DNA of 32,271 nt from Opitutaceae bacterium. GTDB lineage: Bacteria > Verrucomicrobiota > Verrucomicrobiia > Opitutales > Opitutaceae. A model generated the notes under the pieces. That model worked only from the letters and a program-made list of their open reading frames with translations, did not search any database and was not told the origin of the DNA. The stretch covers positions 1 to 32,271 of the forward strand of contig JACSRI010000152.1 of NCBI GenBank assembly GCA_014879845.1, read 5' to 3'. This document shows, in pieces, positions 2,084 through 32,271 of this stretch; within the stretch, counting starts at the first letter, position 1; every line of letters begins with the position of its first letter. The position numbers and the translations under genes were made by a program.

Positions 2084-2253
2084 GGTGTGAACCTGCGTTT
2101 GGGTAACTCGACGAGGAAAGAGACGGCACGCCATCGGTGAAGTTACCGGGCGGCCCGGTGCGGCCGGATGCACACGACCCAGGCCGGATCGCGCGGAAAC
2201 TTCTTCGCCTACCCCGTGCCCCCTGGAATACTGCCCGCCAACACCACACCGGC

Positions 2254-6003: not shown

Positions 6004-7946
6004 GATCCCGGCGCCTCCCGCGCACCGTCGATCGAGCGGATATGTTCACGCAGGATCCTCAGGACCTCCTCGATTGTCGGGGGTTTGTCCTGACACGAGT
6101 GGCCGCTGCGCACGATGTACTCCGACTCGACGCAATCGAGGTGGGCGCTCGGGTAGGCCACCAGCCCATCCTTGCCCTCCTTCGGGTCGCCGTCGCCGCG
6201 CACCGCGATGATCGAGTGTCCCGCCACACCGGGCGCCAGCGGGATCTCGGCGAGCGCGAGCAGCGCGGGATTGTCCGGCCGCATGCTGTCCAGGCTCGTC
6301 GGCGAGGACCGCACCTCGCGCGGCAGATCGAGGACCTCGCTCTTGCCGGCCAACTCGCGTGTGGTGTCGGCGAACCGCTCCGGCAGCGCCACGACCTTGT
6401 GGGCGAGCGTCTGCACGAAGCGGTTGGCGACGTAGCTCCCGCGATGCGGCGTGCTGATGAAAACCACGCGCCGCACGAACGGCAGCGCCTCGAAGACGCC
6501 GTAGCGCCGGATAAACTGCTCCTGCTCAGGCGCGAGGTCGAGCGAGGCCAGCTGCCCGGGCGTGAGCACCGCATGCAGGAGCCGGTCCCCGGTGTTGGTC
6601 GCAGTCAGCTTGGTCAGCAACCCGCCCTGGCTGTGCCCCACCACGACCATCTGGCGCAGGGCTGCATCGGTGCCGCCGGGATCGAGCTCGGCGAGCTTGC
6701 GCCGGAGGGACTCGCGCAACTCCACCGCCGAGTACATGACGGGGTTGCCGCTGTTGTAGATGAAATACCAGAACTGGCACCGCCGGCTCAGGACCGGATC
6801 CGAGCCCAGCGCGTTGGCCATCTCGGCCCACCACACCGGGCTGCTGAAGGTTCCATGCACGAACACGATCGGGATGCGTCCCGGTCGGTAGGGTTGCGTC
6901 AGATACACATCGGTCGGGATGCGTTCCTCCGAGGACAGGAACTGGAGCATGCCCAGCTTCCACACGTAAGCCTGGTTGAGCACGTAGGCGGTCGGGACCG
7001 TGGTGTCGGTCTCGAGTGGCGCGACCCGGCCGGCCATCTCGACCGTCGACTGGTCAAACGGCGAGTGCAGTTCGAGCGAGCCCCGCAGCGTGCCGGCGGC
7101 CACATCATCGACCCGGCTATCCAATCGCAGCACGACCGTGCACGGCACGGCGCGCGCGAAACCGGTCGCGTCGTCGACGCGGGTGAGGCCGACGAGCGTC
7201 GCACCGATGCCGGACTGGCGGTTGCGCGCCGTCAGGCCGCGCACGAGGAGCTGGTCGGCGACGGCGAAGTGGTCGAACTCTCCCAGGGGCCATGGAAAAC
7301 CCGGTTGGCCGAACTCGAGCGTGATGCGCCCGCCCGGGATCCGGCGCTCCCCGCCCGCGAGCCGGGCGCGGGCTGAGACGTCACCGCGGTCGTTGAGCGC
7401 GCGTCCGAGGCCGTAGTTGTAGATATCACACGCGACGCGGAACCGGTGGTCGAACGCGCCGGGCGGCGCCTCGTCCATCTCCGGCGACGCGTCGAAGAGG
7501 AACAACCAGGCGTAGACCGCGGCCGCGAGGTAGTAGTCGCGCGCGTCGTGCTCCCGGGCGGCAGGGTCCCTGGCCCGCAGACGCTCGCCGATGAGGAAGT
7601 TGAGTTCGGCCAGCGCGAAGAGGAGGCCGCGCTCGTGATTTTCGCCGACCTCGCGCCGCAACAGCGCCAGGGCGGTATCCGGTGATTTGCGAAACTCCTC
7701 CTGCTGCTCGAAGCGGTGGAGGGCCGATCGCGTCTCGCGGCTCGGTTCGCCGGCGAGGACGGAGTTGTCGTGGATCTGCTTGTAGACGTCCTCGAACTTC
7801 GCCTGCTCGGTCCCGATCGGTGCCGAACACCCGGCCAGGACGGCGAACGCCCCCGCCGCGATGAGCAGTCTCGGCGATGTCGCGCCCAGGCCTGACTGCA
7901 GCGCAGACGAGAGCCAGGCGGTTCGTGGAGAGGGCGTGCCGGGCAT
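6000..7946 (-). CDS. Lipoprotein alpha/beta hydrolase (lipase-like)
   Basis: A 648-residue protein. A hydrophobic segment ends in the lipobox LAGC (37-40), so it is a likely lipoprotein. The N-terminal half (about 45-300) is rich in helices and resembles no enzyme I know. The C-terminal half is an alpha/beta hydrolase: IVFVHGTFSSPVWW (360-373) gives the oxyanion HG, and VVVGHSQGG (434-442) holds the nucleophile Ser439. Later acidic and His residues (for example SAHLDCVESEY) could complete the triad. The start is ATG at 7946. An earlier codon at 8033 adds residues that spoil the signal region. The gene overlaps DUF4105 by 4 bases. The context suggests turnover of envelope lipids or esters. Confidence 0.8.
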   Translation of the reverse strand: MPGTPSPRTAWLSSALQSGLGATSPRLLIAAGAFAVLAGCSAPIGTEQAKFEDVYKQIHDNSVLAGEPSRETRSALHRFEQQEEFRKSPDTALALLRREVGENHERGLLFALAELNFLIGERLRARDPAAREHDARDYYLAAAVYAWLFLFDASPEMDEAPPGAFDHRFRVACDIYNYGLGRALNDRGDVSARARLAGGERRIPGGRITLEFGQPGFPWPLGEFDHFAVADQLLVRGLTARNRQSGIGATLVGLTRVDDATGFARAVPCTVVLRLDSRVDDVAAGTLRGSLELHSPFDQSTVEMAGRVAPLETDTTVPTAYVLNQAYVWKLGMLQFLSSEERIPTDVYLTQPYRPGRIPIVFVHGTFSSPVWWAEMANALGSDPVLSRRCQFWYFIYNSGNPVMYSAVELRESLRRKLAELDPGGTDAALRQMVVVGHSQGGLLTKLTATNTGDRLLHAVLTPGQLASLDLAPEQEQFIRRYGVFEALPFVRRVVFISTPHRGSYVANRFVQTLAHKVVALPERFADTTRELAGKSEVLDLPREVRSSPTSLDSMRPDNPALLALAEIPLAPGVAGHSIIAVRGDGDPKEGKDGLVAYPSAHLDCVESEYIVRSGHSCQDKPPTIEEVLRILREHIRSIDGAREAPGS

Positions 7947-8074
7947 GGTGGAATCGTGGCCCGCAACGTCCCCCCGACTCCGCGGGGTCGCAATGGCATT
8001 CTCGCATACCTTGGTGCAGGCGATCTTCGGCATTGTCGCGAACTGCCGGGCGGATCAGGCTGCGATCCACCGAG

Positions 8075-8641
8075 ATGCAAGACGCCACCGCCACCACGCC
8101 CTCCGCGCCCGCTCCCGCCCGTTTCGCGCTCCATGCGCTGACCTACGGTGGCATCGCCGGCGTGCTCGGCGGCGGCCTCATGATCGGCGAGTATGCGCTC
8201 GCGCAGAGCGCGGAGCACGCCGAGATCGTGCGCTGGACCTTCATCGCGGCGATGATCATCCCGATCTCCGCCGTCATCCTGGGCATGACGTCCTGGCGTA
8301 ACCGCTACCTGGGCGGCCGCATCCGGTTCGTCCAGGCCTTTGGCATGGCTCTCGCCATCGGCCTCGCCTTCTCCCTCGTCGTGGCCGGCGCCGCCTGGGT
8401 GCATGCGACGAAGATCCATCCCGACCTGATCGAGAAGTCCATCGACCAGTGGGCCATCCTGGCCGCCCAGCAACCCGAGGCGCGCCCCGACGACATCGCC
8501 AAGCAGGCCGAGGAATACAGGCAGACCACCACGCCGGTGGTTTACGCCCAGGACCGATTCTCGCGCTCGCTCATGCTCTCGTTCTTCATCGGCCTGATTG
8601 CGTCGATCACGGTGCCGAAGAAACGCCCCGGGCTCGAGTGA
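8075..8641 (+). CDS. DUF4199 membrane protein
   Basis: A 188-residue protein with four membrane helices (about 20-40, 53-72, 86-108, 165-182) and a soluble loop (109-160) between helices three and four. The layout and the segments GGIAGVLGGGLMIGEY, FIAAMIIPISAVILGM and GMALAIGLAFSLVVAGAAWV fit the DUF4199 family of unknown role, common in Bacteroidetes and Verrucomicrobia. The ATG at 8075 begins the family-like part; an ORF open further upstream gives 66 residues of unlikely composition. It is divergent from the lipase gene (128-base gap) and converges with the ferredoxin-HyfI gene, 48 bases away. No link to either neighbour is evident. Confidence 0.75.
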   Translation: MQDATATTPSAPAPARFALHALTYGGIAGVLGGGLMIGEYALAQSAEHAEIVRWTFIAAMIIPISAVILGMTSWRNRYLGGRIRFVQAFGMALAIGLAFSLVVAGAAWVHATKIHPDLIEKSIDQWAILAAQQPEARPDDIAKQAEEYRQTTTPVVYAQDRFSRSLMLSFFIGLIASITVPKKRPGLE

Positions 8642-8689: not shown

Positions 8690-9484
8690 TCATTTCGCCG
8701 CACCGAGCCGGTCGATCACGCGCAGCAGTCCGTCGAGGATGGTGAGTGGATGCGGCGGGCAGCCCGGGATGTAGAGATCGATCGGGATGACCTCGTCGGC
8801 CCCGTGGTGCACCTCGGGATGGTCGACGAACGGGCCGCCCGCGATGGCGCACGCGCCGACGGCGATCGCGATCTTCGGACCGGGCACCGCCTCCCAGGTC
8901 TTCTTCAGCGCAAGCTCCATGTTGCGCGAGACGGGGCCCGTGATGAGCACGCCGTCGGCGTGGCGAGGTGAAGCCACGAACTGGATACCAAAGCGTCCGA
9001 GATCCCAGCCGATCGTGCCCAGCACGTTGGTGTCGGCCTCGCAGGCGTTGCATCCGCCGGCGCTGACCTGGCGCAGGCGCAGCGAACGTCCGAGAAGCCG
9101 GCGCAGCTTTTCGTCGAGCGCGGCGGCGAGGCGGAGCTGCTCGCGCCCCGGCCCGCCCAGCACGAGATCGCCCCGGGTGCGCACGGCCATGCGATGGTCA
9201 CCCGTCTTCGTCACGGCCTGCGTCGGGCACACGTCCACGCACGCGGAGCAGAAGAGACACCGCCCGAGGTCGAGCGCCGTGGCGCCCGCCCCGCCAGCCG
9301 GTCGCGTGATCGCCGTCGTCGGGCACACCGGTACGCACGCGGTGCATCCGCTCGCACATCTCGCCGCGTCGAGCCGCAGCGCGCCGCCATGGCGATCGGG
9401 CAGCGCCGGCGCCGGCCCGTCCGGATACGCCATGGTCTCGCAGCCGCGTTTCAGTCGATGGAGCAGAGTGTCGAGGACGAACAT
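8690..9484 (-). CDS. Ferredoxin-HyfI (NuoB-type) fusion subunit of the Ehr complex
   Basis: A 264-residue electron-transfer subunit of the soluble arm. Residues 38-92 form a 2x[4Fe-4S] ferredoxin domain: Cys43, 47, 50, 54 (C-x3-C-x2-C-x3-C) and Cys76, 79, 82, 86 (C-x2-C-x2-C-x3-C). Residues 135-260 are the HycG/HyfI/NuoB domain with the four ligands of the proximal cluster: Cys145 and Cys148 in GGCNACE, Cys212 in GACAIAGG and Cys242 in PGCPPHP. All twelve cysteines are present, so the electron wire appears intact. In E. coli hyf these are two proteins (HyfH and HyfI); here they are fused. It is the last gene of the operon, separated from the large subunit by a 137-base gap holding an inverted repeat. 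Confidence 0.88.
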   Translation of the reverse strand: MFVLDTLLHRLKRGCETMAYPDGPAPALPDRHGGALRLDAARCASGCTACVPVCPTTAITRPAGGAGATALDLGRCLFCSACVDVCPTQAVTKTGDHRMAVRTRGDLVLGGPGREQLRLAAALDEKLRRLLGRSLRLRQVSAGGCNACEADTNVLGTIGWDLGRFGIQFVASPRHADGVLITGPVSRNMELALKKTWEAVPGPKIAIAVGACAIAGGPFVDHPEVHHGADEVIPIDLYIPGCPPHPLTILDGLLRVIDRLGAAK

Positions 9485-9488
9485 GGCA

Positions 9489-9615
9489 TTACGAAGTGCG
9501 AAGCGTGGAATGCGGATTTCGGACGGATCGGAGTGAGACTCGCGCGAATACGGATCGCGCCGCGGCGTTCACGTGCAACGCCAGCGTCACTCCGCAGTCC
9601 GCAATCCGCGCTCCG
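9489..9615. repeat. Imperfect inverted-repeat element between the large- and small-subunit genes
   Basis: The left arm (about 9489-9536, containing GCGTGGAATGCGGATTTCGG) and the right arm (about 9582-9615, containing TCCGCAATCCGCGCTCCGCA) are related inverted copies. Reverse-complemented, the right arm reads CTGCGGAGCGCGGATTGCGG and then CGGAGTGAC, matching the left arm with gaps. It fills nearly the whole 137-base gap. Read on the minus strand it would fold into a long hairpin between two subunit genes of one complex. I see no coding potential. Confidence 0.7.
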
Positions 9616-9621
9616 CAGTAT

Positions 9622-11112
9622 TCAAAGGTCATGGCCGCAGTACGAGAGGTTGAAGCTCTTGTTGCAGAGCGGGAAATCCGAGATGGCCGTGCCGCGCAAC
9701 GCGAGGGCGAGGCCGGTCCAGTTATGGAAGGACGGATCGGTGACCTTGTAGCTGGCGAAACGTCCGTTCGCGTCGGTCAGGGCCACGTGACAGACCTCGC
9801 CGCGCCAGCCCTCGGTCAGGGCGACGGCAATCGAACCGGGCGCGGGCGGTGCGATTTCGTCGAGCACCCCACCCTCCGGCGCTGAGCCGAGTTGCTCGCG
9901 GATGAACTGCCCCGAGCGTTGGATCTCGAGGTCGCGCACGCGCGCACGCGCGAAGACGTCGCCGCCCGGCCACACCGCCACCGGTGCCTGGGCAAACCGG
10001 TGCCAACCGGCCGGGTGGTCGTAACGCACGTCGCGCACGAGGCCGCAGGCGCGCGCTGCCGGGCCCACGAGGCCCACCTCGGCGGCCTGAGTCGCGTGCA
10101 CGGTGCCCGTATTCTCAAAGCGGGCACGTACCGAGGCCGCGTCCCAGAGCCACTCCGTCGCCCTCGTGACCTCGCCCATCGCGGCCTCGAGCCGCTCTCC
10201 GAGTTTCGCGAGGCGGTCGGCGTCCAGATCGTGCCGCACGCCGCCCGGCCGCACGAGGGCGCGTCCGAAGCGGTTGCCGCAGACCAGCGCCGTGATGTTG
10301 AGGAAGTCGCCGCGGACCTTGCCGCAGGCGGCCGAGGTCGGCAGGAACGCGACATCGTTGGCCAACGCGCCCATGTCGCCGGTGTGGTTCGCGAGGCGCT
10401 CCAGCTCCAGCGCGACGGCGCGCAGCCACTGCGCGCGCAGCGGCGCCTCCGTTCCCGCGAGCGCCTCGAGGATCGAGGCATACGCCGTGGTGTGGGCGAT
10501 CGTGGTGTCCCCGGCGATCGTCTCCATCTGCGCGACCGTCGCGCGATGCGGGCCGGCCGCGAGCGCGCGCTCGATGCCGCGATGCTGGTAGCCGAGCGCG
10601 ATTTCCAGATGCAGCACCTCCTCGCCCGCGCACTGGAAACGGAAGTGCCCCGGCTCGATGATGCCGGCGTGCACGGGACCGACCGCGACCTCGTGCACTT
10701 CGCGCCCGTCGACGCGGAAGAACTCGCCGTTGGCCGGGGCGTCGCCCTCCGGGCGGCTGCGCCGCACGGGCTTGAGCCAGGGGTGTCCCTCAGGCGTGAC
10801 GCCGTGCTGCTCCCGGACCTCGCGCTCGAAGAGGTGGGCCTGCGCGTGCGTGACAGTGAGCGACGGATACGCTCCGCTGAAGGGTTCGGAGCGCGCCACG
10901 GCCAGCGTGTTGTCGGCGTCGAAGGCCAGCACGGCGACGAGGCGGACGGCTCCCGCCGGAGCCGGCGTGCCGAACCACGAGCACAGCCGCGCGCCGCGGT
11001 CGAGTTCGCCCGCCGTTCGGCGCACCAGATCCGCCACGGGCAGTTCGGTCACCTCCGCGAGGGGCAGGCACGAGGTGTTGGCCAGGAGCGTGAATGGCGT
11101 CGTGGAACTCAT
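9622..11112 (-). CDS. HyfG/HycE-like large subunit lacking [NiFe] ligands (Ehr-type)
   Basis: A 496-residue protein joining a NuoC-like N-terminal domain (about 20-135, with FEREVREQHGVTPEGHPWLKP) to a NuoD/HycE-like domain (about 140-496, with IIEPGHFRFQ, LHLEIALGYQHRGIERAL and RAQWLRAVALELERLANHTGDMG). In hydrogenases two CxxC pairs hold the [NiFe] site. The first (RVCGIC) is here TIAGDT, with Ala200 and Thr203 in place of the cysteines. The last (DPCxxC) is replaced by a tail ending LCNKSFNLSYCGHDL, where Cys483 and Cys492 are nine apart and not a CxxC. So hydrogen chemistry at a NiFe centre is not expected. The protein resembles complex I and Ehr large subunits; its electron partner is unknown. 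The ATG overlaps the hyfF stop (ATGA). Confidence 0.88.
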   Translation of the reverse strand: MSSTTPFTLLANTSCLPLAEVTELPVADLVRRTAGELDRGARLCSWFGTPAPAGAVRLVAVLAFDADNTLAVARSEPFSGAYPSLTVTHAQAHLFEREVREQHGVTPEGHPWLKPVRRSRPEGDAPANGEFFRVDGREVHEVAVGPVHAGIIEPGHFRFQCAGEEVLHLEIALGYQHRGIERALAAGPHRATVAQMETIAGDTTIAHTTAYASILEALAGTEAPLRAQWLRAVALELERLANHTGDMGALANDVAFLPTSAACGKVRGDFLNITALVCGNRFGRALVRPGGVRHDLDADRLAKLGERLEAAMGEVTRATEWLWDAASVRARFENTGTVHATQAAEVGLVGPAARACGLVRDVRYDHPAGWHRFAQAPVAVWPGGDVFARARVRDLEIQRSGQFIREQLGSAPEGGVLDEIAPPAPGSIAVALTEGWRGEVCHVALTDANGRFASYKVTDPSFHNWTGLALALRGTAISDFPLCNKSFNLSYCGHDL

Positions 11113-12551
11113 GGGACCGGGAAGAGTTGGATCACCGCCGCGTCCCAAGCCTCGATCAGGACCGAGGGCGTGGCGAGACCGAGCAAGAGCGAGAAGCCGA
11201 GCAGCGCAACCGCCGGCAGGATCACGCCCATCGTCTCCGGAAAGCGCTCGCGGACCTTGCGCGCCGCGGTGCGCGGCCGGCCGTCGACGATGCCGAAGAC
11301 CACGCGCGTGAGCCCGAAGAAAACGAAGAGCAAGCTGCCGAGAAACACCGCGGCCGCGATGCCGTTGCCCGTCGCGAAGGCCGCGCGCAGGATCCGCAGT
11401 TCGCTGAAGAACGGCCCGAAGGGCGGACACGCCGTGACGGCGAACATCCCCGTGACAAAGATCGCGGCCGAGCGCGGCGTGATCGCCGCCATGCCGCCCA
11501 CCTCGTCCATCGTGCGCGCGCCGGCCGCGCGCCGGATGTTGCCCGCGCTGAGGAAGAGCGCGCCCTTGGTCAGGCTGTTGTTCCACACGTGGAAGAGTGC
11601 CGCCCACACGCCCGCGCCGCCGAGCGCGGCGCCGATGGCGAGGATGCCCATGTGCTCCACGCTCGAGTAGGCCAGCATGCGCTTGAAGTCGCGTGTCCCG
11701 AGGAGAAAGAGTGCCGCCACGACCATGGAAAACAGGCCGATCACGAGCAGCGTGCGATCGACGACCGGGCCGACCCCCGCCGCCGCCACCACGGCTCGGA
11801 TACGCAGGAGCGCGACAAACGCCACCGTGGTGACGCCGCCCGCGAGCACCGCGCCGACGATGGCCGGCGCCTCGCCGTAGGCGTCGGGTTTCCACGTATG
11901 CATGGGCGCGAGGCCCATCTTCGTGCCGTAGCCGGCGAGCAGCAGCACCCAGGCCGCGAGCACCCACGGCCGCGAAAGCCCCGCGCCCTGGGCGGCGAGT
12001 GCATGGAAGGTGAGATCGCCGGACCCGCCGCCATGAATCGATGCGTATCCAAGACAGAACGACCCCAGCAGCGAGAGCGCGATGCCCGTGCCGCCGACCA
12101 GCAGGTATTTCCAGGTCGCCTCATAGGCGCGCGGCGTACCGTTGAAGTGCAGGAGCGGCACGGCCGCGAGTGTCACGCCCTCGACCGCGATCCAGAGCAG
12201 GCCGAGGTGACGCGCCATGTGCCCGGCGCTGAGCAGCCCGAGCACGGCGAGCAGACAGGCGACGAAGATGCGGTTCGGCCGCTCCGTGCGCAGCCGAAGG
12301 TAGTTCAGGCCGTAGACTGCGCAGCAGAGAAAGAGGATCGAGACGGCCGGCAGCATCGCCCGCGCGAGTGGATCGAAGCCAAGCCACGCCGCGTCGGACA
12401 CCGCGGGAGGCGCGATCAGCATCCACACGCTCAGCACGACGTGCGCCGCGCCTGTGATCGGCAACAACCACGGCCGTGTGCGGTCGCCGGGCCACAACGC
12501 CGCGAGCGCCGCCGCAGCCATCGGCACGATGATGAGGAGATACGCGTTCAT
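11109..12551 (-). CDS. HyfF-like antiporter subunit (NuoM/N family)
   Basis: A 480-residue, about 14-helix proton- or sodium-translocating subunit of the membrane arm. Antiporter key residues are present: Glu124 in LLWIAVEGVTLAA, Lys148 in ATWKYLLVGG, Lys211 in LLAGYGTKMGLAPMHTWKPDAYGEAPA (with His218), the LAYSSVEHMGI helix, and HVWNNSLTKGALFLSAGN with a further Lys. The motif TKMGLAPMHTWKPDAYGEAP is characteristic of HyfF. The length is a little below E. coli HyfF (about 526). The start ATG and the end each overlap a neighbour by 4 bases, so it is translated from one polycistron with hyfE and the large subunit. Confidence 0.9.
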   Translation of the reverse strand: MNAYLLIIVPMAAAALAALWPGDRTRPWLLPITGAAHVVLSVWMLIAPPAVSDAAWLGFDPLARAMLPAVSILFLCCAVYGLNYLRLRTERPNRIFVACLLAVLGLLSAGHMARHLGLLWIAVEGVTLAAVPLLHFNGTPRAYEATWKYLLVGGTGIALSLLGSFCLGYASIHGGGSGDLTFHALAAQGAGLSRPWVLAAWVLLLAGYGTKMGLAPMHTWKPDAYGEAPAIVGAVLAGGVTTVAFVALLRIRAVVAAAGVGPVVDRTLLVIGLFSMVVAALFLLGTRDFKRMLAYSSVEHMGILAIGAALGGAGVWAALFHVWNNSLTKGALFLSAGNIRRAAGARTMDEVGGMAAITPRSAAIFVTGMFAVTACPPFGPFFSELRILRAAFATGNGIAAAVFLGSLLFVFFGLTRVVFGIVDGRPRTAARKVRERFPETMGVILPAVALLGFSLLLGLATPSVLIEAWDAAVIQLFPVP

Positions 12552-13186
12552 TCGCGAAGGACCGTGAGTTTGCGGGTGTCGAGCGTGTCGAAGGCGCGCT
12601 GGATGCGGTCGACGATGATGCCGATGACGAACACGCCCACGGTGAGGTCGAGGAGGATGCCCGCCTCCACCAGCAGCGGCGTGGCGTGGATGAGGAGCAG
12701 GCCGAACAGGAAGATGCCGTTCTCGAGGATGAGGTAGCCGCAGACCTGCGAGATCGCCTTGGTGCGGCCGATGAGAAGCACAAAGCCCGTCAGCACCGAC
12801 GCGAGCGAGCCCGGCACGAGCAGCGTGCCCGCATGTTCAGGCAACAGCGGCAACGCCTGCGCCAGGGCCACCGCGGCGATCGTGCCGCCGGCCCCGAGCA
12901 GCAGCGAGGGCACGAAGCCGATGAACGGGTCGATCTCGCGCTCGATGTTGGCCGCGCGCATGGCCCGGCGCAGGAGCGTGGGGATGACCAGACCCTTGCC
13001 CGCGACCGTCGCGATGGCGACGAGCGTCACGCGCCAGTCCATCGCGTGCATCAGCACGGGCATGACACCGAGCACCGCGCCCTGCAGCGCGACCGCGCGG
13101 ATGAGGCCCGGCAGGCGGCTGCTCCCCAGCGCGACGAGGTTGAGGCCCATGGCAAGGCCGACCAGCACGTTGAGCGTCGCGGTCAT
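12548..13186 (-). CDS. HyfE-like membrane subunit (NuoK-related)
   Basis: A 212-residue, six-helix membrane protein matching hydrogenase-4 component E (about 216 residues in E. coli). The C-terminal half carries the NuoK-like helices ISQVCGYLILENGIFLFGLLL (with Glu155) and LLVEAGILLDLTVGVFVIGII (with Glu174); these glutamates line the proton path in complex I. The start chosen is the ATG at 13186, which overlaps the hyfC stop as ATGA. The open frame runs further upstream but only as a shadow of hyfC. Confidence 0.88.
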   Translation of the reverse strand: MTATLNVLVGLAMGLNLVALGSSRLPGLIRAVALQGAVLGVMPVLMHAMDWRVTLVAIATVAGKGLVIPTLLRRAMRAANIEREIDPFIGFVPSLLLGAGGTIAAVALAQALPLLPEHAGTLLVPGSLASVLTGFVLLIGRTKAISQVCGYLILENGIFLFGLLLIHATPLLVEAGILLDLTVGVFVIGIIVDRIQRAFDTLDTRKLTVLRE

Positions 13187-14091
13187 GCCGCACCGCCCTT
13201 CCAAGCCATCAACAGAGCGAAGAGGCACATGAGAAACGCCGTGGTGAGCAGAAGCGGCACCGAGCGGAAGGCGAAGCGGGCCAGCAGCGACTCGACCAGC
13301 CCGACGCCGATGGTCACGACGAACACACCCGCGGCGATGATCGCCAGCGCCACCGGTGCCGAGACTCCGCCGAGGGGCAGCACCGCCTCGACCAGCAGGA
13401 GCGAGAAGAGCAGGAGTTTCACCGCCGCGCCATGCAGGATGACGGCGAGCGGCGGCCCGCTGTGGTCCAGCGCCATGACCTCGTGGATCATCGTGAGCTC
13501 GAGATGTGTGTTGGGATCGTCGAACGGCACGCGGCAATTCTCCGCCAGCAGGACCGTGAACAACCCCGCCGCCAGCAACACCGCGCCAGCGCCCGGTGCC
13601 GGCGCGAGCATCGCCGAGAGCGATACGCTGCCGGTCTGCACGCTGAGCGAAAGCACCGCCGCGATGATCGCCGCCTCCGCGATCACGGCGTAACTGACCT
13701 CACGCGCCACGCCCATGCCCTCAAAGGCCGACCCGGTCTCCATCGCGGCCCACGTCGTGCCGAAGCGGGCCAGGGCCAGCAGGTAGATCATGAGCAGCAC
13801 GTCACCGCGAAACGCAAACGGCGCCTCAGCCGGCCCGAGCGGCAGCAGCACGATCGCCGCCACCACGGCGACCCACGCGACCGCCGGCCCGGCGATGAAT
13901 CCCGGCGACGCGAGCGTGCTCATCACCACGCCCTTCCGCCACAGCCGGGCGAGATCGTAGTAGAGCTGCAGCACCGGAGGGCCGCGCCGGCCGCCGACCC
14001 AGGCTTTCACTTTGTTGATGATGCCCGGAAGCAACGGCGCGAGGCCGAGCAGCACGACGAGCCGGAGTGGGACTTCGAGGTAGGGTGTCAT
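13183..14091 (-). CDS. HyfC-like membrane subunit (NuoH family)
   Basis: A 302-residue, eight-helix protein that links the soluble arm to the antiporter subunits. NuoH/HyfC signatures are PGIINKVKAWVGGRRGPPVLQLYYDLARLWRKG (22-54), METGSAFEGMGVAREVSYAV (117-136) and LLAENCRVPFDDPNTHLELTMIHEVM (181-206). These contain the conserved Glu and Arg residues at the junction with the large and small subunits. E. coli HyfC is of similar length. Both ends overlap neighbours by four bases. Confidence 0.92.
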   Translation of the reverse strand: MTPYLEVPLRLVVLLGLAPLLPGIINKVKAWVGGRRGPPVLQLYYDLARLWRKGVVMSTLASPGFIAGPAVAWVAVVAAIVLLPLGPAEAPFAFRGDVLLMIYLLALARFGTTWAAMETGSAFEGMGVAREVSYAVIAEAAIIAAVLSLSVQTGSVSLSAMLAPAPGAGAVLLAAGLFTVLLAENCRVPFDDPNTHLELTMIHEVMALDHSGPPLAVILHGAAVKLLLFSLLLVEAVLPLGGVSAPVALAIIAAGVFVVTIGVGLVESLLARFAFRSVPLLLTTAFLMCLFALLMAWKGGAA

Positions 14092-16043
14092 TGGCTGCCT
14101 CCCAGCAGGACCATGAGTGCGAGCACGGCGATGCCCGCGACCAGATAGACGATATAGGACTGCAACCGCCCGTGTTGCAGCCGCCGCACGGCGGTCGAGA
14201 CGTGGAGCACGCCCGTGCTCGCCGGACGCAGGACGCGATCGAGCATGGTCTCCGGGTGCCTGTCCACCAGCACGGCGCCGTCCGGCAGCGGTCCGCGCGG
14301 ACGCCGCAGGCGTCGCTCAGGCCGGAGTATCCAGCGAAACCAACGCGCCGCCAGGTCGCCGAACGAGCCGCTCGTGTATTGCATGCGCGCACCCGGCGTC
14401 GCGTACCCACAATCCCAGGTCACCGACCGGTTCAGGCCGTTGCGCCGGACGTGCGCGAAGACGAGGACCACGCCGACCGCAAGCGCCATAGCCACCGCGA
14501 GGGACGCCGTCCCGAGCGGCACGAGTGGCGCCCCTGGGTCGACCCCGCCCCAGGCCGGATGCCATGCCGCGGTCGCCCGGAGAAGGATCGGTCGCAGCAG
14601 CTGCGGCGCGAGGCCGAGTCCGAGGCAGATCGCGGCCAGGCCGCACATCGCCCCGCGCATGAGTACACCGCATTCGTGCGCGTGCGCGGGGCGCCTCGTG
14701 CGGGCCGCGCCCATGAAGACAATCGTCCCCGCCTTGATGAACGTCGCCAGCGCCAGCGCCCCGGCCACGCCGAGCACGATCGCCGCCGGCACGGCCACCG
14801 CAGCCGCCGGGCCCTGTGTCGTCACCGCATCGAAGAGTCCGAGATAGATCAGCCACTCGCTGACAAAGCCGTTGAGCGGCGGCAGCGCCGCCACCGCCAC
14901 GGACCCGAGCGCAAACGCACCCGCGGTCCACGGCATCGCGCGCCAGAGCCCGCCGAGGCGGCTCATCTCACGCGTGCCCGTCGCGTGCAGGACCGAGCCG
15001 GCGGAGAAGAAGAGCAGCGCCTTGAACGCGCCGTGATTCCAGACATGCAGCAGCGCGCCCGCGAGCGCGAGCCGCCCCCACTGCAGCCCGTTCCCACCGT
15101 GCGCCGCACCAAGCATCGCCGCGCCCAGGCCGATCAGGATCACGCCGATGTTCTCCACCGAGCAGTAGGCGAGCAGCCGCTTGAGGTCGTCCTGCGCGAG
15201 CGCGAAGGCGATGCCGAGCACCGCGCTCACCATGCCCGCCACGATGACAACCCACCCCGCGGCCGCCGGCACGGGTAGCCAGCCGGAAAACCGCACGAGC
15301 CCGTAGACGCCCATCTTGATCGCGACGCCGGAGAGGATCGCCGAGACGTGGCTCGGCGCATTCGCGTGCGCGGACGGCAGCCAGACATGCAGCGGAAAGA
15401 GTCCCGCCTTCACCCCGAAGCCCGCGAGCACGAGCCAGAAGAGCGGCGCGAGTTCCACGTGCTCGCGCATCGGACCGAGTTCCCAGCTGCCGACGCTGTG
15501 CGCGAGCAGCGCGAAGAACGCGAAGAGGCACACCGTGCCCGCGTGCGAGGCTGCCAGATACAGCCACCCCGCACGCCGCACGGCCTTCATCCTCCCGTCG
15601 AGGGTGACGAGGAAAAACGCGCAGACCGTGAACGCCTCCCAGCCGAGGAGAAAATGCAGGCCGTTGGCGGAGAGCAGGACCCAGCCCATGCTGGCCATCA
15701 GTCCACTCCACCACCTCCGACCGCGGCCGGCGGAGCGCCGTTGCTCGCGATCCGACCAATACTCCCGCGAGTAGACGGCGCCCGCGCCGCCGACGACGCT
15801 CATCAGCGCCAGGAAGACCGCGCTCACGCCGTCGAGGCGGAGGTGGATCACCTCGCCGCCGACGGGGAGCGCGCTGCGCCACACCCAGTCCGCGCCACCC
15901 GCGAGCAGCACCAGCGCGGCGCCGAGTCCGCCTGTGGCAGCCATCAGCGTCAACGCCAGCCACACGCGCGGCCAGCGGCGTCCGCCGACGATGCCGCCCG
16001 CGAGCCCGAGCGCGGCCAGCGCGATGCAGGGACCGACGATCAT
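14088..16043 (-). CDS. HyfB-like antiporter subunit, second copy
   Basis: A 651-residue NuoL-like antiporter with about 16 helices. Ion-path residues are Glu136 in FLLGWEAFTVCAFF, Lys212 and His219 in GFGVKAGLFPLHVWLPSAHANAPSHVSAILSG, the Lys of QDDLKRLLAYCSVENIGV, and HVWNHGAFKALLFFSAGS. The C-terminus has the HyfB signature TWDCGYATPGARMQYTSGSF and ends RLQHGRLQSYIVYLVAG. It is closely paralogous to the copy at 16802-18751: the two align without gaps over at least the first 230 residues and share Glu136 and Lys212 numbering. It overlaps the EIIA gene upstream (ATGA) and hyfC downstream (ATGA). Confidence 0.9.
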   Translation of the reverse strand: MIVGPCIALAALGLAGGIVGGRRWPRVWLALTLMAATGGLGAALVLLAGGADWVWRSALPVGGEVIHLRLDGVSAVFLALMSVVGGAGAVYSREYWSDREQRRSAGRGRRWWSGLMASMGWVLLSANGLHFLLGWEAFTVCAFFLVTLDGRMKAVRRAGWLYLAASHAGTVCLFAFFALLAHSVGSWELGPMREHVELAPLFWLVLAGFGVKAGLFPLHVWLPSAHANAPSHVSAILSGVAIKMGVYGLVRFSGWLPVPAAAGWVVIVAGMVSAVLGIAFALAQDDLKRLLAYCSVENIGVILIGLGAAMLGAAHGGNGLQWGRLALAGALLHVWNHGAFKALLFFSAGSVLHATGTREMSRLGGLWRAMPWTAGAFALGSVAVAALPPLNGFVSEWLIYLGLFDAVTTQGPAAAVAVPAAIVLGVAGALALATFIKAGTIVFMGAARTRRPAHAHECGVLMRGAMCGLAAICLGLGLAPQLLRPILLRATAAWHPAWGGVDPGAPLVPLGTASLAVAMALAVGVVLVFAHVRRNGLNRSVTWDCGYATPGARMQYTSGSFGDLAARWFRWILRPERRLRRPRGPLPDGAVLVDRHPETMLDRVLRPASTGVLHVSTAVRRLQHGRLQSYIVYLVAGIAVLALMVLLGGSQ

Positions 16044-16747
16044 GCCCGCGCCTCCGGGTTGCCGGCGCCGGACGCCGCCACATCGGCCGCGGCCACGGCA
16101 CCAAGGATCTCCTCATCGGCCGCACCGCGCACGAGCAGCTCGCGCAACGGCCCGCGCGTGAGCAGGCGGCTGAGCCGGCCGAGCAGGTCGAGATGCGCGC
16201 GCGGCGACGGCGCGATGAAGAAGATCAGGCGCTTCACCGCCTCGCCATCCGGCGGCGGCTCATCGAGCGGCAGCGCGTCGCGCAGGAGCACGAGCGCGAT
16301 CGTGCCAGCATCGCGCCCGAGCGCCACGCGCACCGCCGGGTGCGGCAGGGCGAAGCCGCCGCCGACCGGCGCCCAGGTGACTCCTCCCCGGGCGCGCAGC
16401 CTCTGCGAGAGCATCTGCCGGACCGGGGGCGTCACGCCGGGCAGCGAGCTCACGGCCTTGACGAACACGTCCGCGACCTCCGCGCCCGCCACGTCGCGCC
16501 AGATGCCGCCCGCGCGCAGCAGCGGCTCGAGCCGAGCGGTGCCGCTCAACGCCGGGGTTTCGGTGGCAAGGAAGCCGACTTTCGCGGCCAGTCCTCGGGC
16601 GGCGGCCCACTGCGTCACCTGCCCGCGATCGAAGAGGAGGCGACCGCGATCGACCGTGTGCGGCATTCCCTCGTTGTGGATCCAATCGTCCACGACCTTC
16701 TCGGATACACCAAACGACTCGGCGATCTGGATGAGGTTCAGATACAT
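16040..16747 (-). CDS. HTH-EIIA(Ntr-type) PTS protein inside the Ehr operon
   Basis: A 235-residue two-domain protein. Residues 1-50 look like an excisionase/MerR-type helix-turn-helix: MYLNLIQIAESFGVSEKVVDDWI, then a wing-like segment GMPHTVDRGRLLFDRGQVTQW. Residues about 75-222 match the PTS EIIA fructose/nitrogen (PtsN) domain: the phospho-His is in GGFALPHPAVRVAL (His136), followed by IALVLLRDALPLD, VKRLIFFIAPSPRAHLDLLGRLSRLL and an LRELLVRGAADEEIL end. EIIA(Ntr) proteins take phosphate from NPr and control transporters and regulators by docking. It lies between the two HyfB copies and is translationally coupled to the second. It may sense PTS state and adjust the pump or its expression; this is inference. 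Confidence 0.8.
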   Translation of the reverse strand: MYLNLIQIAESFGVSEKVVDDWIHNEGMPHTVDRGRLLFDRGQVTQWAAARGLAAKVGFLATETPALSGTARLEPLLRAGGIWRDVAGAEVADVFVKAVSSLPGVTPPVRQMLSQRLRARGGVTWAPVGGGFALPHPAVRVALGRDAGTIALVLLRDALPLDEPPPDGEAVKRLIFFIAPSPRAHLDLLGRLSRLLTRGPLRELLVRGAADEEILGAVAAADVAASGAGNPEARA

Positions 16748-16801
16748 GGTGCGCGCATCAGGCTGACGCAGGATGGGTGGCGGGGAAAGGGGGTTTCGCG
16801 G

Positions 16802-18751
16802 TCAAGGTGGAGTCCCGGCCGCCACCACCGCCACGAGCGCGACGATGCCGGCGACCAGATAGAGGATGTAGCTTTGCACGCGTCCGTGCTGGAGTCGGCG
16901 AACCGCGCCGGAGAGCCGCATGACCAGTCGGCCCGCGGGCTCGACGACCTGATCGAGCACGGTCTCCGGCGTATGACTGGCATGACGGCCCGCGCGCGGC
17001 AGGACGCCCGCATCGACCTCGCGGTGCACGGCTGGACGAAGGATCCAGCCAAACCACTCCGTGAGAATCCCGGCAAACGACCCGGCCGAGTACTGCATGC
17101 GCGCCGTCGGTGCCACGTACCCACAGTCCCACGTCACAGCCCGGACCATGCCGGCACGGCTGGCTTTTCGCGCCAGAGCCCACACCGCGGCTCCGGCGAG
17201 CAGCGCGAGCACGACGTGGGCCGCGCCAAGCGCGGTCAGTGACTCGGGCCGGGCCACCACGAGTTCCCCGGGACGCCAGGCGTCCGCGGCGCGCGCCACC
17301 GCCGGCCAGACCAGCGCCGGGCCCAGGCCGATGCCTGCGCAGGCCGACGCCAGCACGAGCATCGCACCGCGCATCGCGGGACCACACTCGTGCGCATGCT
17401 CCGCCGCCGGTGAGCGCGGTGCACCGAGGAAGACGACACCGCAGACCTTCACGAAACACGCGAGCGCCAGCGCCCCGGTCACGCCGAGCAGGATCGCCGC
17501 GGGCATCGCGCCCCAGGCCATCGGGCCGCGCGATCCCGCGGCATCGAAGAGCCCGAGAAACACAAGCCATTCGCTCACGAAACCATTGAGCGGCGGCAAC
17601 CCCGAGATCGCCGCGGCGCCGAGCGCGAAGAGCGACGCCGTCCACGGCATCGCGCGCCACAACCCGCCGAGCCGGCTCATCTCGCGCGTCCCGGTCGCAT
17701 GCAGCACCGAACCCGCGCCGAGGAAGAGCAGCGCCTTGAAGAGCCCGTGGTTCCACACGTGGAGGAGACCTCCCGCGAGTGCCACCCCGCCCCACGCCGC
17801 GCCGCCATGGCCGAGCGCCACGAGCCCGAAACCGACGCCGATGAGGATGATCCCGATGTTCTCGACGCTGTGATAGGCGAGCAATCGCTTGAGATCGTGC
17901 TGCCCGAGTGCGAACGCCACGCCGAGCACCGCGCTGATCACCCCGAGCGCGACCACCACCCAACCGGCCGACGCCGGCACCGGCAGCCAGCCGGTGAACC
18001 GTACGAGCCCGTAGATCCCGAGCTTGATCGTCACGCCGGACAGCACGGCCGAGACGTGGCTCGGTGCATTCGCGTGCGCAGACGGCAGCCAGATGTGGAG
18101 TGGAAACACACCGGCCTTCAGCCCGAATCCGATCAACGCGAGCCAGAAGAGCGGCGCGAGTTCGTCGTGCCCGAGCATCGGCCCGAGCTTCCACGAACCG
18201 GTCCTCTCGGAAAGCAGCACGAAAAACGCAAACAAGCACAGCGTCGCGACGTGGGATGCCGCCAGGTAGAGCCAACCGGCGCGCCGCACTTCGCTCCGCT
18301 GCCGATCGAGCGTGACGAGGAAGAACGCCGCCAGCGTGAACACCTCCCACCCAAGGAGAAAGTGCACGCCATCGCGCGCCAGCAGCACGAGGTCGAGCGA
18401 GAGCAGCAGCACGCTCCACCACAGCCGCCCGAGCCGCGCCGTGCGCGGATGCGCGCTCTCGCTCCAGTATCCGGAACCGTAGACGGCCCCGACCCCGCCC
18501 ACGACCGCGACGAGCACGAGGAAAAACGCGCTGAGCGCGTCGACCTCGAAGACCAACCGCTGGCCGCAGAACGAACCCGTTCCCGCAAACACCCACGTGC
18601 CGGCGCTCGTGAGCACGAGCACGGCGCCGAGGAGTTGCGCGAAAAGGCCACCGACGACAGTCACGCACCAAGCGCGTCGTGCCCACGTCGCGCAGATCAG
18701 GCTCGCGACGAGGAAGACGGCCGAGACGGCGATGGACAGCGCGGTGTTCAT
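16802..18751 (-). CDS. HyfB-like antiporter subunit, first copy
   Basis: A 649-residue NuoL-like ion-translocating subunit. Key residues are Glu136 in FLLGWEVFTLAAFF, Lys212 and His219 in GFGLKAGVFPLHIWLPSAHANAPSHVSAVLSG, QHDLKRLLAYHSVENIGI, and HVWNHGLFKALLFLGAGS. The HyfB C-terminal signature VTWDCGYVAPTARMQYSAGSF is present. The start is the ATG at 18751; a longer open frame to 19078 runs back into SulP and is not coding. It is separated from SulP by 175 bases and from the EIIA gene by 54 bases, the loosest junctions of the operon apart from the repeat gap before the ferredoxin fusion. Its close likeness to the copy at 14088-16043 points to an old tandem duplication. Confidence 0.9.
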   Translation of the reverse strand: MNTALSIAVSAVFLVASLICATWARRAWCVTVVGGLFAQLLGAVLVLTSAGTWVFAGTGSFCGQRLVFEVDALSAFFLVLVAVVGGVGAVYGSGYWSESAHPRTARLGRLWWSVLLLSLDLVLLARDGVHFLLGWEVFTLAAFFLVTLDRQRSEVRRAGWLYLAASHVATLCLFAFFVLLSERTGSWKLGPMLGHDELAPLFWLALIGFGLKAGVFPLHIWLPSAHANAPSHVSAVLSGVTIKLGIYGLVRFTGWLPVPASAGWVVVALGVISAVLGVAFALGQHDLKRLLAYHSVENIGIILIGVGFGLVALGHGGAAWGGVALAGGLLHVWNHGLFKALLFLGAGSVLHATGTREMSRLGGLWRAMPWTASLFALGAAAISGLPPLNGFVSEWLVFLGLFDAAGSRGPMAWGAMPAAILLGVTGALALACFVKVCGVVFLGAPRSPAAEHAHECGPAMRGAMLVLASACAGIGLGPALVWPAVARAADAWRPGELVVARPESLTALGAAHVVLALLAGAAVWALARKASRAGMVRAVTWDCGYVAPTARMQYSAGSFAGILTEWFGWILRPAVHREVDAGVLPRAGRHASHTPETVLDQVVEPAGRLVMRLSGAVRRLQHGRVQSYILYLVAGIVALVAVVAAGTPP

Positions 18752-18870
18752 CGCGCGCAGCCTCCCATTCGAGGTAGGGCGAGTTCTCCGAGCCTGCCGC
18801 GAACGACCACCGACACACGCGGCGCGCCCGGAGTTCGCGCCCTGCCACGATCCGCCACACCCCCGGCGGG

Positions 18871-18896
18871 CGACCCGTCTCCTTCGAGGCGGGTCG
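18871..18896. other. GC-rich hairpin between sulP and hyfB
   Basis: CGACCCGTCTC (18871-18881) pairs with GAGGCGGGTCG (18886-18896) over 11 positions with one G-U, leaving a 4-base CTTC loop. No T-run follows on either strand, so it is not a standard terminator. It sits in the 175-base gap after sulP and could stop RNA decay or tune the ratio of SulP to pump subunits. The rest of the gap shows nothing recognisable. Confidence 0.45.
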
Positions 18897-18926
18897 TGCG
18901 GCGGGCGGGTGGTAGCGGCCGGCGTT

Positions 18927-20777
18927 TCACGCTTTGTCGTGGTTTGGGTCGCGCCCGGCGTGCGCCGGTCTGTCGAGGATGCGGTCCGCACGCCGCAGGG
19001 CCTCGCGCAATTCCCGCCGCGCGGCCTCGAGTTCCTGGCGCTGCGTCGCGATGACCTCGTGCGGCTCCTGGGGCTCACTCACGGGCGGCAGGCCGAGGAT
19101 CTCGCGCGCCCGCGCGAGCGCCGCGGTGATGTGCGGGCAGACGTTTTCGCGGCCGATGCGGTCGATGAAGCCCGCGTTCTCCATCACGGCGAGCGGCTGC
19201 GTGTGGGGCGCGCTCAGGACGAGATGCTTGCCCTTGGCGCGGAGTTTCGCGTGCAGGTCCTCGAGCGCCTGCAGGCCGGTCGCGTCGATCGCGAGCACCT
19301 TGCGCACGCGCAGGATGAGCACGTCGGGCTCGCGCTTCGCGCGCTTGAGCTCGTCATCGAGCTTATCCACCACGCCGAAGAAAAACGCGCCGAAGACGCG
19401 GAAGATGAGCACGCCGTCCGGCACCTCCTTGCCGACGAGCGAGTGCTGCGAGCCCTCGGTCTCGGTCGACTCATCGACCGCCGTGATCTGAGAGGTCTCG
19501 GAGATGCGCTTCACCATGAGCAGCGCCGCGAGCACCACGCCGACCTCGACCGCGAGCGTGAGGTTCGTCAGCACGGTGAGCGCGAACGTCGCGACAAACA
19601 CCGAGGAGTCGCTCAGCGGCCAGCGGCCGAGGCGGAGAAACTCCTTGAACGAAATCATGCGCCACGCCGCGACGACCAGCACCGCGCTCAGCGCGGCGAG
19701 CGGCACGTGCACGATGAGCGGTGCCGCGGCGACGAGCAGCACGAGCAGCAGGGCGGAGTGCACCAACCCGGCCACGGGCGTGCGCGCGCCGGAACGGACA
19801 TTGACGACCGAGCGCGCCACGGCGCCCGTGGTCGGCACGCAACCGAAGAGCGAGCCCACCATGTTGGCCAGCCCCTGCCCGATCAGCTCCTGGTTCGAGT
19901 CGTGTTTCTGATCGAGGAGGCCATCGGTCACGACGGCGCAGAGCAGCGCCTGCATCGCCACGAGCATCGCGATGGTGAAGGCCGGCTGCACGAGATCGCT
20001 CACCAGCGCCCACGTCGGCTCCGGCATCTGGAAGGATGGCAGCGCGCTGGAGAACGACCCGAAGGCCGAACCGATCGTCGCAATGCCCAGGCTCGACTCG
20101 AAGCCGAAGATCCATGCCGCGGCCGTCGCGAGTAGCAAGCCGACCATCGCACCCGGCACATAGCGCGAGAGCTTCACCGGCCAGAAGCCGATGACCGCGA
20201 CCGTGACGGCTCCCAGGGCGACGGTCGGGCCATGCAGGGCGCCGCCCTGCGTGGCGAGCACCTGGAGTTTCCCGACAAAGTCCACCGGCATCGCGTCGAC
20301 CTGCAGGCCGAAGAAGTTTTTGATCTGCGAGCTGATGATGAGCACCGCGATGCCCTTGGTGAAGGCTCGGGAAACTGGATACGGGATGAAGCGGATGATC
20401 GAGCCGACCTTGGCCAGCCCCATCACGCAGAGCATCACGCCCGCCATGAACGTGCACAGCAGCAGGCCGCCGAGCCCGTGCGACGCGAGCAGCCCGTAGT
20501 TGATGATGACAAACGCGCCCGTCGGCCCGGCGATCTGCACGCGCGAGCCGCCGAACACGGCCACGATCGCACCGCCGATGATCGCGGTCCACAGGCCCTG
20601 CTCCGGCGTCGCGCCGGACGCGATGGCAAAGGCCATCGAGAGCGGGAACGCGAGCGTCATGACATTGAGCCCGGCCAGCGCATCGCGCCGGCACTGCGCC
20701 AGCGAACACCCGGCAAACACCGCCGGCAGCCGCAACTTCGGCAGCCCGGGAACGGTCATCGCGCGCGGAGCACTCAC
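18927..20777 (-). CDS. SulP-family anion transporter with STAS domain
   Basis: A 616-residue SLC26/SulP transporter in the inner membrane. It begins RRDALAGLNVMTLAFPLSMAFAIASG (30-55) and carries GGSRVQIAGPTGAFVIINYG (76-95), the SulP anion-site segment. Then come about 12-14 helices, including GSLFGCVPTTGAVARSVVNVRSGARTPVAG. A STAS domain follows (VPDGVLIFRVFGAFFFGVVDKLD..., ILRVRKVLAIDATGLQALEDL). The C-terminus ends in a charged helix rich in Arg and Glu. SulP proteins carry sulfate, bicarbonate or carboxylates. No sulfate-assimilation gene is near, and linkage to an ion pump favours bicarbonate or another Na+/H+-coupled anion; this is inference. The start is GTG at 20777, overlapping the upstream stop as GTGA; an ATG at 20759 is the alternative. 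Confidence 0.9.
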   Translation of the reverse strand: MSAPRAMTVPGLPKLRLPAVFAGCSLAQCRRDALAGLNVMTLAFPLSMAFAIASGATPEQGLWTAIIGGAIVAVFGGSRVQIAGPTGAFVIINYGLLASHGLGGLLLCTFMAGVMLCVMGLAKVGSIIRFIPYPVSRAFTKGIAVLIISSQIKNFFGLQVDAMPVDFVGKLQVLATQGGALHGPTVALGAVTVAVIGFWPVKLSRYVPGAMVGLLLATAAAWIFGFESSLGIATIGSAFGSFSSALPSFQMPEPTWALVSDLVQPAFTIAMLVAMQALLCAVVTDGLLDQKHDSNQELIGQGLANMVGSLFGCVPTTGAVARSVVNVRSGARTPVAGLVHSALLLVLLVAAAPLIVHVPLAALSAVLVVAAWRMISFKEFLRLGRWPLSDSSVFVATFALTVLTNLTLAVEVGVVLAALLMVKRISETSQITAVDESTETEGSQHSLVGKEVPDGVLIFRVFGAFFFGVVDKLDDELKRAKREPDVLILRVRKVLAIDATGLQALEDLHAKLRAKGKHLVLSAPHTQPLAVMENAGFIDRIGRENVCPHITAALARAREILGLPPVSEPQEPHEVIATQRQELEAARRELREALRRADRILDRPAHAGRDPNHDKA

Positions 20778-21121
20778 GCCTGGGACTCCGCCGGTTCGGC
20801 CGCGGAATTGAAGAGAAACACGCCGCAATGCGGGCACACGCCGATGCGGCCGGGTTGGTTGATTTCCGCGAGTTGTCCGACCGGGAGTTTGAGGTGACAG
20901 GCGCCGCAGGACATGCCGATCACCGGTGCCACGCTCTCGCGGCCCTGCTTCGCCATGCGGTCGTGATGGCTGAGCAACGCAGTCGGGAGCTTGGCGCGCA
21001 GTTCCGATATCCGCCGCTCGAGGACCTCGCGGTGCGGCGCCTCCGGCTGGCGGAGGTGCCGGAGCTCGACCTCCAGCGCGTTGAGCGCGCGAAGGTGCTC
21101 GAGGAGTTCGCGATTGATCAT
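20774..21121 (-). CDS. C4 zinc-ribbon coiled-coil protein (CdsZ/DUF-type regulator)
   Basis: A 115-residue protein. The N-terminal half (1-60) is a helical, Leu/Arg/Glu-rich coiled coil starting MINRELLEHLRALNALEVELRHLRQ. The C-terminus holds a zinc ribbon: Cys72 and Cys75 in SCGACHLKLP, Cys96 and Cys99 in VCPHCGVFLF. This matches the zf-RING_7/C4-type zinc-ribbon family found in many bacteria, whose role may be regulatory or RNA/DNA-related. It is the first gene of the long operon, translationally coupled to sulP and divergent from the sigma-54 activator. Whether it functions with the complex or merely leads the transcript is not clear. Confidence 0.8.
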   Translation of the reverse strand: MINRELLEHLRALNALEVELRHLRQPEAPHREVLERRISELRAKLPTALLSHHDRMAKQGRESVAPVIGMSCGACHLKLPVGQLAEINQPGRIGVCPHCGVFLFNSAAEPAESQA

Positions 21122-21132
21122 GGCGGATGTAT

Positions 21133-21148
21133 GGCAGCTTCCCTGCCA
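21133..21148 (-). promoter_or_regulatory. Candidate sigma-54 promoter or operator before the zinc-ribbon gene
   Basis: On the minus strand TGGCAGGGAAGCTGCC has the sigma-54 GG-N10-GC spacing and a good -24 half (TGGCA), but the -12 half is CTGC, not TTGC. It is also a dyad (GGCAG-N5-CTGCC), so it may be a binding site instead. The implied transcript start falls at the ATG of the zinc-ribbon gene, which would make it leaderless; this weakens the promoter reading. Confidence 0.3.
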
Positions 21149-21249: not shown

Positions 21250-21286
21250 TGCAGAGTCTGCATCTCGCGGGCAGTGTTTGCACTGC
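21250..21286. promoter_or_regulatory. Two perfect palindromes upstream of the sigma-54 activator
   Basis: TGCAGAGTCTGCA (21250-21262) is a 13-base palindrome with 6-base arms. GCAGTGTTTGCACTGC (21271-21286) has 6-base arms around TTTG and ends 6 bases before the ATG of the activator gene. Both share a GCAG/CTGC outer sequence. They could be activator or autoregulatory sites in the shared 171-base divergent region, or the second could form an RNA hairpin hiding the start. Confidence 0.45.
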
Positions 21287-21292
21287 TCGACC

Positions 21293-22657
<1,365 letters not shown>

Positions 22658-30902: not shown

Positions 30903-32271
<1,369 letters not shown>

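Follow-up and report, generated by a model that had tools for sequence, protein, structure and literature searches.

Hydrogenase-related complexes that lack the NiFe site (Ehr) are widespread; in the accessible sections of two papers, their role is reported as untested (PMC7894505), and coupling of redox chemistry to charge translocation is suspected (PMC6349859). According to the same sections, the Ehr subunits of Geobacter are abundant on formate and no earlier work in that species had addressed what they do (PMC7894505), and the available text of a third paper treats the Geobacter Ehr as nonfunctional (PMC13194489). Here, an Ehr operon was analyzed in a 32,271-nucleotide (nt) stretch of DNA from an Opitutaceae bacterium (contig JACSRI010000152.1; the whole stretch is referred to as the window). 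Besides the complex, the operon encodes a SulP anion transporter, a zinc-ribbon protein, and a protein that joins a helix-turn-helix (HTH) region to an EIIA domain of the phosphotransferase system (PTS). Comparison with other genomes identifies the HTH-EIIA protein as a true, dedicated partner of Ehr, through a link broader than the initial annotation of this DNA could know, and SulP as a lineage-restricted accessory. In the open-licence PMC literature, as far as its text is accessible, no relevant paper on an Ehr-EIIA or Ehr-SulP link was found; the available parts of PMC2700814 and PMC8691401 mention no PTS partner of Ehr, and the term “ehr” is absent from the main text of the former.

The closest described system, the Geobacter Ehr, has the same Hyf-like membrane arm and a large subunit without NiFe ligands (large-subunit identity of 54 to 57% for Geobacter and Geomonas), but the HTH-EIIA protein, SulP, the zinc ribbon, and the sigma-54 activator of the present locus are not mentioned in the accessible portion of the Geobacter Ehr literature. 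Among solved structures, the large subunit and the HyfB-type subunits are closest to those of formate hydrogenlyase (FHL) and hydrogenase-4 (Hyc/Hyf, group 4 [NiFe]); these differ in their four NiFe cysteines, all absent here, and no formate dehydrogenase is encoded among the ten genes of the operon. Complex I has homologous core subunits, but no NuoE, NuoF, or NuoG is found among the ten genes, which are, in operon order:

20774..21121, minus strand: C4 zinc-ribbon protein (PF02591), the opening gene of the operon
18927..20777, minus strand: SulP anion transporter with a STAS domain; begins with GTG and has Gln and Cys at the coupling site of helix 8
16802..18751, minus strand: HyfB1, antiporter-like subunit
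16040..16747, minus strand: HTH-EIIA protein, predicted phospho-His136
14088..16043, minus strand: HyfB2, antiporter-like subunit
13183..14091, minus strand: HyfC (NuoH-like)
12548..13186, minus strand: HyfE (NuoK-like region)
11109..12551, minus strand: HyfF, antiporter-like subunit
9622..11112, minus strand: Ehr large subunit (NuoCD/HycE-like); NiFe cysteines absent
8690..9484, minus strand: small subunit (NuoB/HycG-like; proximal Cys145, Cys148, Cys212, and Cys242 present) with a fused N-terminal 2x[4Fe-4S] region

The ten genes occupy 8690-21121, all on the minus strand, and belong to the families named by the initial annotation, which had also counted at least seven 4-base start/stop overlaps. 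That count was too high: only six of the nine junctions overlap in this way (GTGA between the zinc ribbon and SulP, and ATGA at EIIA-HyfB2, HyfB2-HyfC, HyfC-HyfE, HyfE-HyfF, and HyfF-large subunit), and the others are gaps of 175, 54, and 137 nt. SulP most likely starts at the GTG at 20777, with a GGAG upstream, and HyfB1 at the ATG at 18751; the family and alignment comparisons of HyfB1 were run on the protein without its first residues. The zinc ribbon likewise opens the operon in five related loci (L021, L119, L120, L027, and L028).

The identification as Ehr was borne out, with a Hyf/Ech-like (and FHL-like) membrane arm and both NuoD- and NuoB-like soluble subunits encoded in the operon. 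Among solved chains, HycE of FHL is the best match to the large subunit (E = 1.5e-42), and NuoD of complex I also aligns; 6u8y_L (MBS/Mbx) gives a weaker overall match (E = 4.2e-20). The CxxC pairs of HycE align with Ala200-Gly-Asp-Thr203 and Ser490-Tyr-Cys-Gly493 of the window protein, and the NiFe cysteine quartet is present in none of the 92 large subunits from the window and related loci. Dozens of other residues are invariant in all 92 rows, including Gly201, Asp202, His207, Ser490, and Gly493. The quinone-site His and Tyr of NuoD, which we take to be His38 and Tyr87 of Thermus thermophilus, are not kept. Because the NiFe cysteines and the quinone residues of complex I are both gone, the alignments indicate that the large-subunit pocket, strongly conserved as it is, corresponds to no NiFe site and to no canonical quinone site. 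The Glu and Lys that presumably serve as pump residues in NuoL are retained at the corresponding positions of HyfB1, HyfB2, and HyfF. In the last gene, where a 2x[4Fe-4S] region is fused to the small subunit, the cysteines of the proximal cluster and of both outer clusters are all intact, with a CxxC in place of what we take to be the tandem Cys pair of complex I. As a separate observation, the large subunit of one family genome, G010 (L025 5365-6909), contains an extra repeated peptide stretch that is absent from its relatives.

The partners of the complex were examined in two sets. The family set consisted of 252 genomes, 37 with a close (type-1) large subunit and 215 others, in which presence of the large subunit, SulP, and EIIA was scored from the top candidates per genome. 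The wide set consisted of the best 80 of at least 545 Ehr relatives from a scan of genome contigs and is spread over many phylum labels, of which those of L033, L035, and L041 may be binning errors; given this selection, about a dozen of the 80 are the family's own kin, and the nearest records are labeled Opitutaceae, Opitutia, and Lacunisphaera, among others. An EIIA orthologue was found in 35 of the 37 genomes with a type-1 large subunit versus 0 of the 215 others, genomes that are not phylogenetically independent; the enrichment tests for EIIA, and likewise those for SulP, KorA, and RuBisCO, ignore kinship. The two type-1 genomes without it, G176 and G182, are assemblies of 330 and 830 contigs. 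In the wide set, EIIA adjoins HyfB in 40 of the 56 scorable loci, that is, those whose first HyfB is preceded by 1 kb or more of sequence; the remaining 24 hold less than 1 kb or no HyfB, and as 4 of these still show EIIA, the overall count is 44/80. When only loci of 49 to 62% large-subunit identity are considered, EIIA lies beside HyfB in 32 of 48. In L072, EIIA adjoins the large subunit instead of HyfB, and isolates with EIIA beside Ehr include Geomonas limicola (L076) and Rectinema subterraneum (L095). Relatives therefore do not regularly lack EIIA, and the counts in the family and wide sets rule out a chance neighbor.

The predicted phospho-His (His136) is retained in 54 of 56 EIIA sequences, with Cys in the other two. 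The structural model of the protein (pLDDT 91) comprises an N-terminal HTH-like part and an EIIA part, with PtsN as the best PDB match; PtsN, or EIIA(Ntr), has the EIIA fold and the phospho-His in common with it, but the protein described here differs in its N-terminal HTH and in its fixed place beside Ehr genes. The EI and HPr families have two matches each in the bacterium's own genome. The occurrence of an EIIA with a conserved phospho-His beside Ehr under many phylum labels suggests that Ehr is regulated and tied to PTS signaling. Two further observations concern this protein family. At lower rank, the EIIA model also matches the folds of cytoplasmic domains from SLC4 anion exchangers, which parallels the pairing of an EIIA-type domain with an anion carrier. 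Elsewhere in the same genome, between genes that by eye look cysteine-synthase-like and ABC-transporter-like, a further HTH-EIIA protein is encoded (PF12728 and PF00359; L136 2693-3433, G000:C9).

The family also contains a second, type-2 Ehr, with a large subunit of 35 to 42% identity, which occurs alone in six genomes and alongside type 1 in four. The type-2 loci L027 and L028 contain the zinc ribbon and SulP, not EIIA, and L028 also has a sigma-54 activator upstream. In G003 (L026 1353-17606), the HyfF and large-subunit genes of the type-1 operon flank a whole type-2 set, and G131 (L123 36-11261) shows the same arrangement as far as its contig extends. Neighbor clustering of 86 loci revealed no further recurrent partner besides SulP, sensor/activator-type regulators, groups of at most 4 loci, and apparent antisense open reading frames (ORFs).

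In the window, the operon shares its upstream intergenic region with a divergent activator gene that was not in the gene list of the initial annotation. The features of this region are as follows:

21134..21148, minus strand: candidate sigma-54-type -24/-12 element TGGCAGGGAAGCTGC (GG-N10-GC), immediately upstream of the zinc-ribbon start
21250-21262 and 21268-21289, no strand assigned: two short inverted repeats, possible activator sites
21293..22657, plus strand: divergent sigma-54-dependent response-regulator-type activator (AAA+)

With the predicted element, transcription would begin almost at the annotated zinc-ribbon ATG. The pattern is common, the GC-rich window holding 14 matches to GG-N10-GC versus 7.8 expected, so the evidence for the element consists of its position and recurrence: of seven loci examined close upstream of the zinc-ribbon start, three have exact elements (the window, L021, and L119), three have elements with one mismatch (L120, L027, and L028), and L038 lacks one there. 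The data do not support sigma-54 control as a trait of Ehr in general: the standard pattern occurred in 1 of 57 wide loci (random mean, 3.6) and the strict one in 0 of 57 (random mean, 1.4).

The genes and their order, the loss of the NiFe ligands, the cluster and His motifs, and the conservation of EIIA are observed directly; we infer the involvement of ferredoxin, the translocated ion, the gating, and the role of SulP. Taken as a whole, the reading of a ferredoxin-linked Ehr ion pump that is gated by PTS phosphorylation, accompanied by SulP, and switched on through sigma-54 has, in our estimate, an even chance of being correct. Low-potential electrons, probably from ferredoxin, would come in through the pair of [4Fe-4S] motifs fused to the small subunit, pass to the proximal cluster, and end in the conserved large-subunit pocket, which is not of the NiFe type and where a partner would react. 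The reaction would drive H+ or Na+ through HyfB1, HyfB2, and HyfF together with HyfC and HyfE, and PTS phosphorylation of the HTH-EIIA protein at His136 would gate either the pump itself or the transcription of its genes. In the lineage of the window, the sigma-54 activator would additionally switch the operon on, and in part of the lineage SulP may serve as an accessory anion carrier that balances charge or pH, probably without H+ or Na+ symport at the usual site.

Several findings weigh against this reading. The quinone residues of complex I are not kept in the large subunit either, as read by eye from the alignment. EIIA is not adjacent to Ehr in 16 of the 56 scorable wide loci, although in one of these, from Geobacter argillaceus (L090), the EIIA-HyfB pair is present but inverted, and it is missing from all six family genomes that have only the type-2 Ehr. 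SulP is absent from 18 of the 37 type-1 family genomes, and KorA from 6 of the 37. Finally, six small subunits have lost proximal ligands while the operon was kept, which is difficult to reconcile with an electron path that the complex cannot do without.

The case for ferredoxin comes from its oxidoreductases. A KorA homologue is found in 31 of the 37 type-1 Ehr genomes versus 114 of the 215 others, and the bacterium's own genome has three POR-domain matches; such data favor ferredoxin as the donor without being decisive. Three genomes of a single genus, G010, G075, and G076, also carry a korA-like gene (named by eye) that is divergent to SulP (L025 18560-19999 for G010; L115 5637-7466 and L116 8585-10399 for the other two). 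The presence of these ferredoxin-dependent enzymes is also compatible with reverse running, in which the membrane potential would push electrons uphill to ferredoxin for reductive steps, as the same anatomy permits both directions. Reverse running is nevertheless unlikely, given that no donor or reductive pathway was identified and that korA adjoins SulP in one genus only. A partnership of the pump with a formate dehydrogenase encoded elsewhere is less probable still: an FDH-Ehr link is proposed in other bacteria and hinted at by Geobacter proteomics in the accessible text of PMC6349859 and PMC7894505, but neighbor clustering of the 86 loci yielded no formate dehydrogenase-like family, with no genome search aimed at one.

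The altered small subunits bear on a further alternative, that Ehr needs no redox chemistry and is a membrane-potential-driven or regulatory ion machine. Cys242 is replaced by Trp in 6 of 96 small subunits (L026 16749-17606; L038 11563; L040 5179; L034 11394; L050 11549; L123 10452). All four proximal cysteines are gone in L026, L038, L050, and L123, where Cys145, Cys148, and Cys212 are also replaced by other residues; one remains in L040 and two in L034. In a quick tree, from which rows of up to 200 residues were dropped and in which the columns of the trait itself were kept, five of the six form one supported group of the family and the sixth, labeled Planctomycetales, stands apart, so that at least two changes are needed. 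The affected loci still hold the large subunit, HyfC, HyfE, HyfF, and at least one HyfB. G003, G131, and the L034 genome additionally encode an intact small subunit of type 2, and no other small subunit of more than 38% identity was found in the genomes of L038, L050, and L040 (matching contig coordinates indicate that L034, L038, and L040 are G210, G103, and G123). Replaced ligands in at least two lineages, in three cases with no such second small subunit in the genome, speak for an ion machine free of redox chemistry; yet 90 of the 96 sequences keep Cys242, both outer [4Fe-4S] motifs persist even in the six, and the window protein is intact, which leaves this alternative a slender prospect. 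Its described counterpart would be DAB (DabA-DabB), a complex for vectorial CO2 hydration, which, in the accessible text of PMC13144422, likewise combines a NuoL-like subunit with a partner protein, but no DabA (PF10070) is found among the ten genes here and a full redox arm is present.

SulP was regarded by the initial annotation as part of the set, a view that largely fails outside one sub-lineage; within the family, the distribution of SulP is nonrandom. The close SulP clade occurs in 23 of the 252 family genomes, 19 of the 37 with type-1 Ehr versus 4 of the 215 others; two of these four (G016 and G009) have only type-2 Ehr, and no Ehr large subunit was found in the other two (G094 and G122). 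In 16 of the 19 genomes, SulP lies in or beside the type-1 locus, as judged mostly by coordinates, and in several genomes by coordinates alone: 11 have SulP, a HyfB-sized gap, and EIIA; 4 have SulP next to EIIA; and 1 has a downstream, convergent SulP. In the remaining three, SulP is beside HyfB1 at a contig end (G176), beside HyfB1 but apart from the rest (G076), or alone (G075). In the wide set, SulP is adjacent in 2 of the 80 loci (L039, which is very close to family genome G093, and L044), a lower bound because 24 of the loci fall short of the 1-kb rule given above. A strict SulP-HyfB1 submodule, hinted at by the pair set apart in G076, was rejected, as G265 has SulP without HyfB1, the type-1 part of G003 has a single HyfB, and HyfB1 occurs without SulP in G033, G021, and G006.

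In a quick tree of 38 SulP rows, the type-1 clade comprises 17 rows with a support of 100. At the position of the helix-8 carboxylate, which is Glu in SLC26Dg and Asp in BicA and to which we ascribe a role in H+ or Na+ coupling, all 17 rows of this clade have Gln versus Glu in all 19 other readable rows (2 of the 38 being unreadable at the site); the Gln-bearing rows L113, L114, and L115 are SulP genes outside an Ehr locus. The window protein shares SulP and STAS domains with BicA and other SLC26 carriers, but has Gln and Cys where BicA has the Asp/Thr pair of its Na+ site, presumably D258/T262. With Gln in place of the carboxylate, we infer that the type-1 SulP clade has probably lost its usual coupling site. 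The SulP score is 446 bits with the DauA model versus 254 bits with BicA. SLC26Dg is called a fumarate-proton symporter in the accessible text of PMC6656431.

These residues bear directly on the initial annotation's model of a Na+- or H+-coupled bicarbonate importer, in which the pump would make the gradient that SulP uses, as a CO2-concentrating device under PTS control. SulP does sit in the operon and is nonrandomly distributed in the family, and RuBisCO-family matches of any form are more common in the Ehr genomes (15/37 versus 30/215, with kinship ignored). The model is nonetheless very unlikely: the Gln in 17 of 17 sequences weighs against Na+/bicarbonate coupling, the score favors DauA over BicA, SulP is missing from nearly half of the type-1 family genomes and seldom adjacent in the wide set, and the only RuBisCO-family match of the bacterium's own genome, the one genome in which the form was classified, looks like a form-IV RuBisCO-like protein, as judged by eye from its motifs. 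A bolder combination, quite improbable as it stands, would make type-1 Ehr a PTS-gated ion machine with optional redox chemistry, whose cluster-less forms would run on the membrane potential and whose arm would energize SulP as its anion partner; for such an optional-redox Ehr with a carboxylate-stripped SulP, DAB is a distant parallel. The Glu-to-Gln change and the cluster-less small subunits furnish two more sequence-level predictions. That Ehr is the relic of a dead hydrogenase, as the available text of PMC13194489 assumes for Geobacter from the loss of the NiFe ligands, is close to untenable, as its core subunits are long open frames across labels of many phyla and dozens of large-subunit residues are invariant in 92 of 92 rows.

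The other genes of the window encode a methylenetetrahydrofolate reductase (121-999), a beta-eliminating lyase (2137-3291), a DUF4199 protein (7877-8641), and a Cpn60 chaperonin (30903-32270), and the products of 22832-23737 and 23949-24980 resemble, by eye from their translations, OleB and OleA of olefin synthesis.

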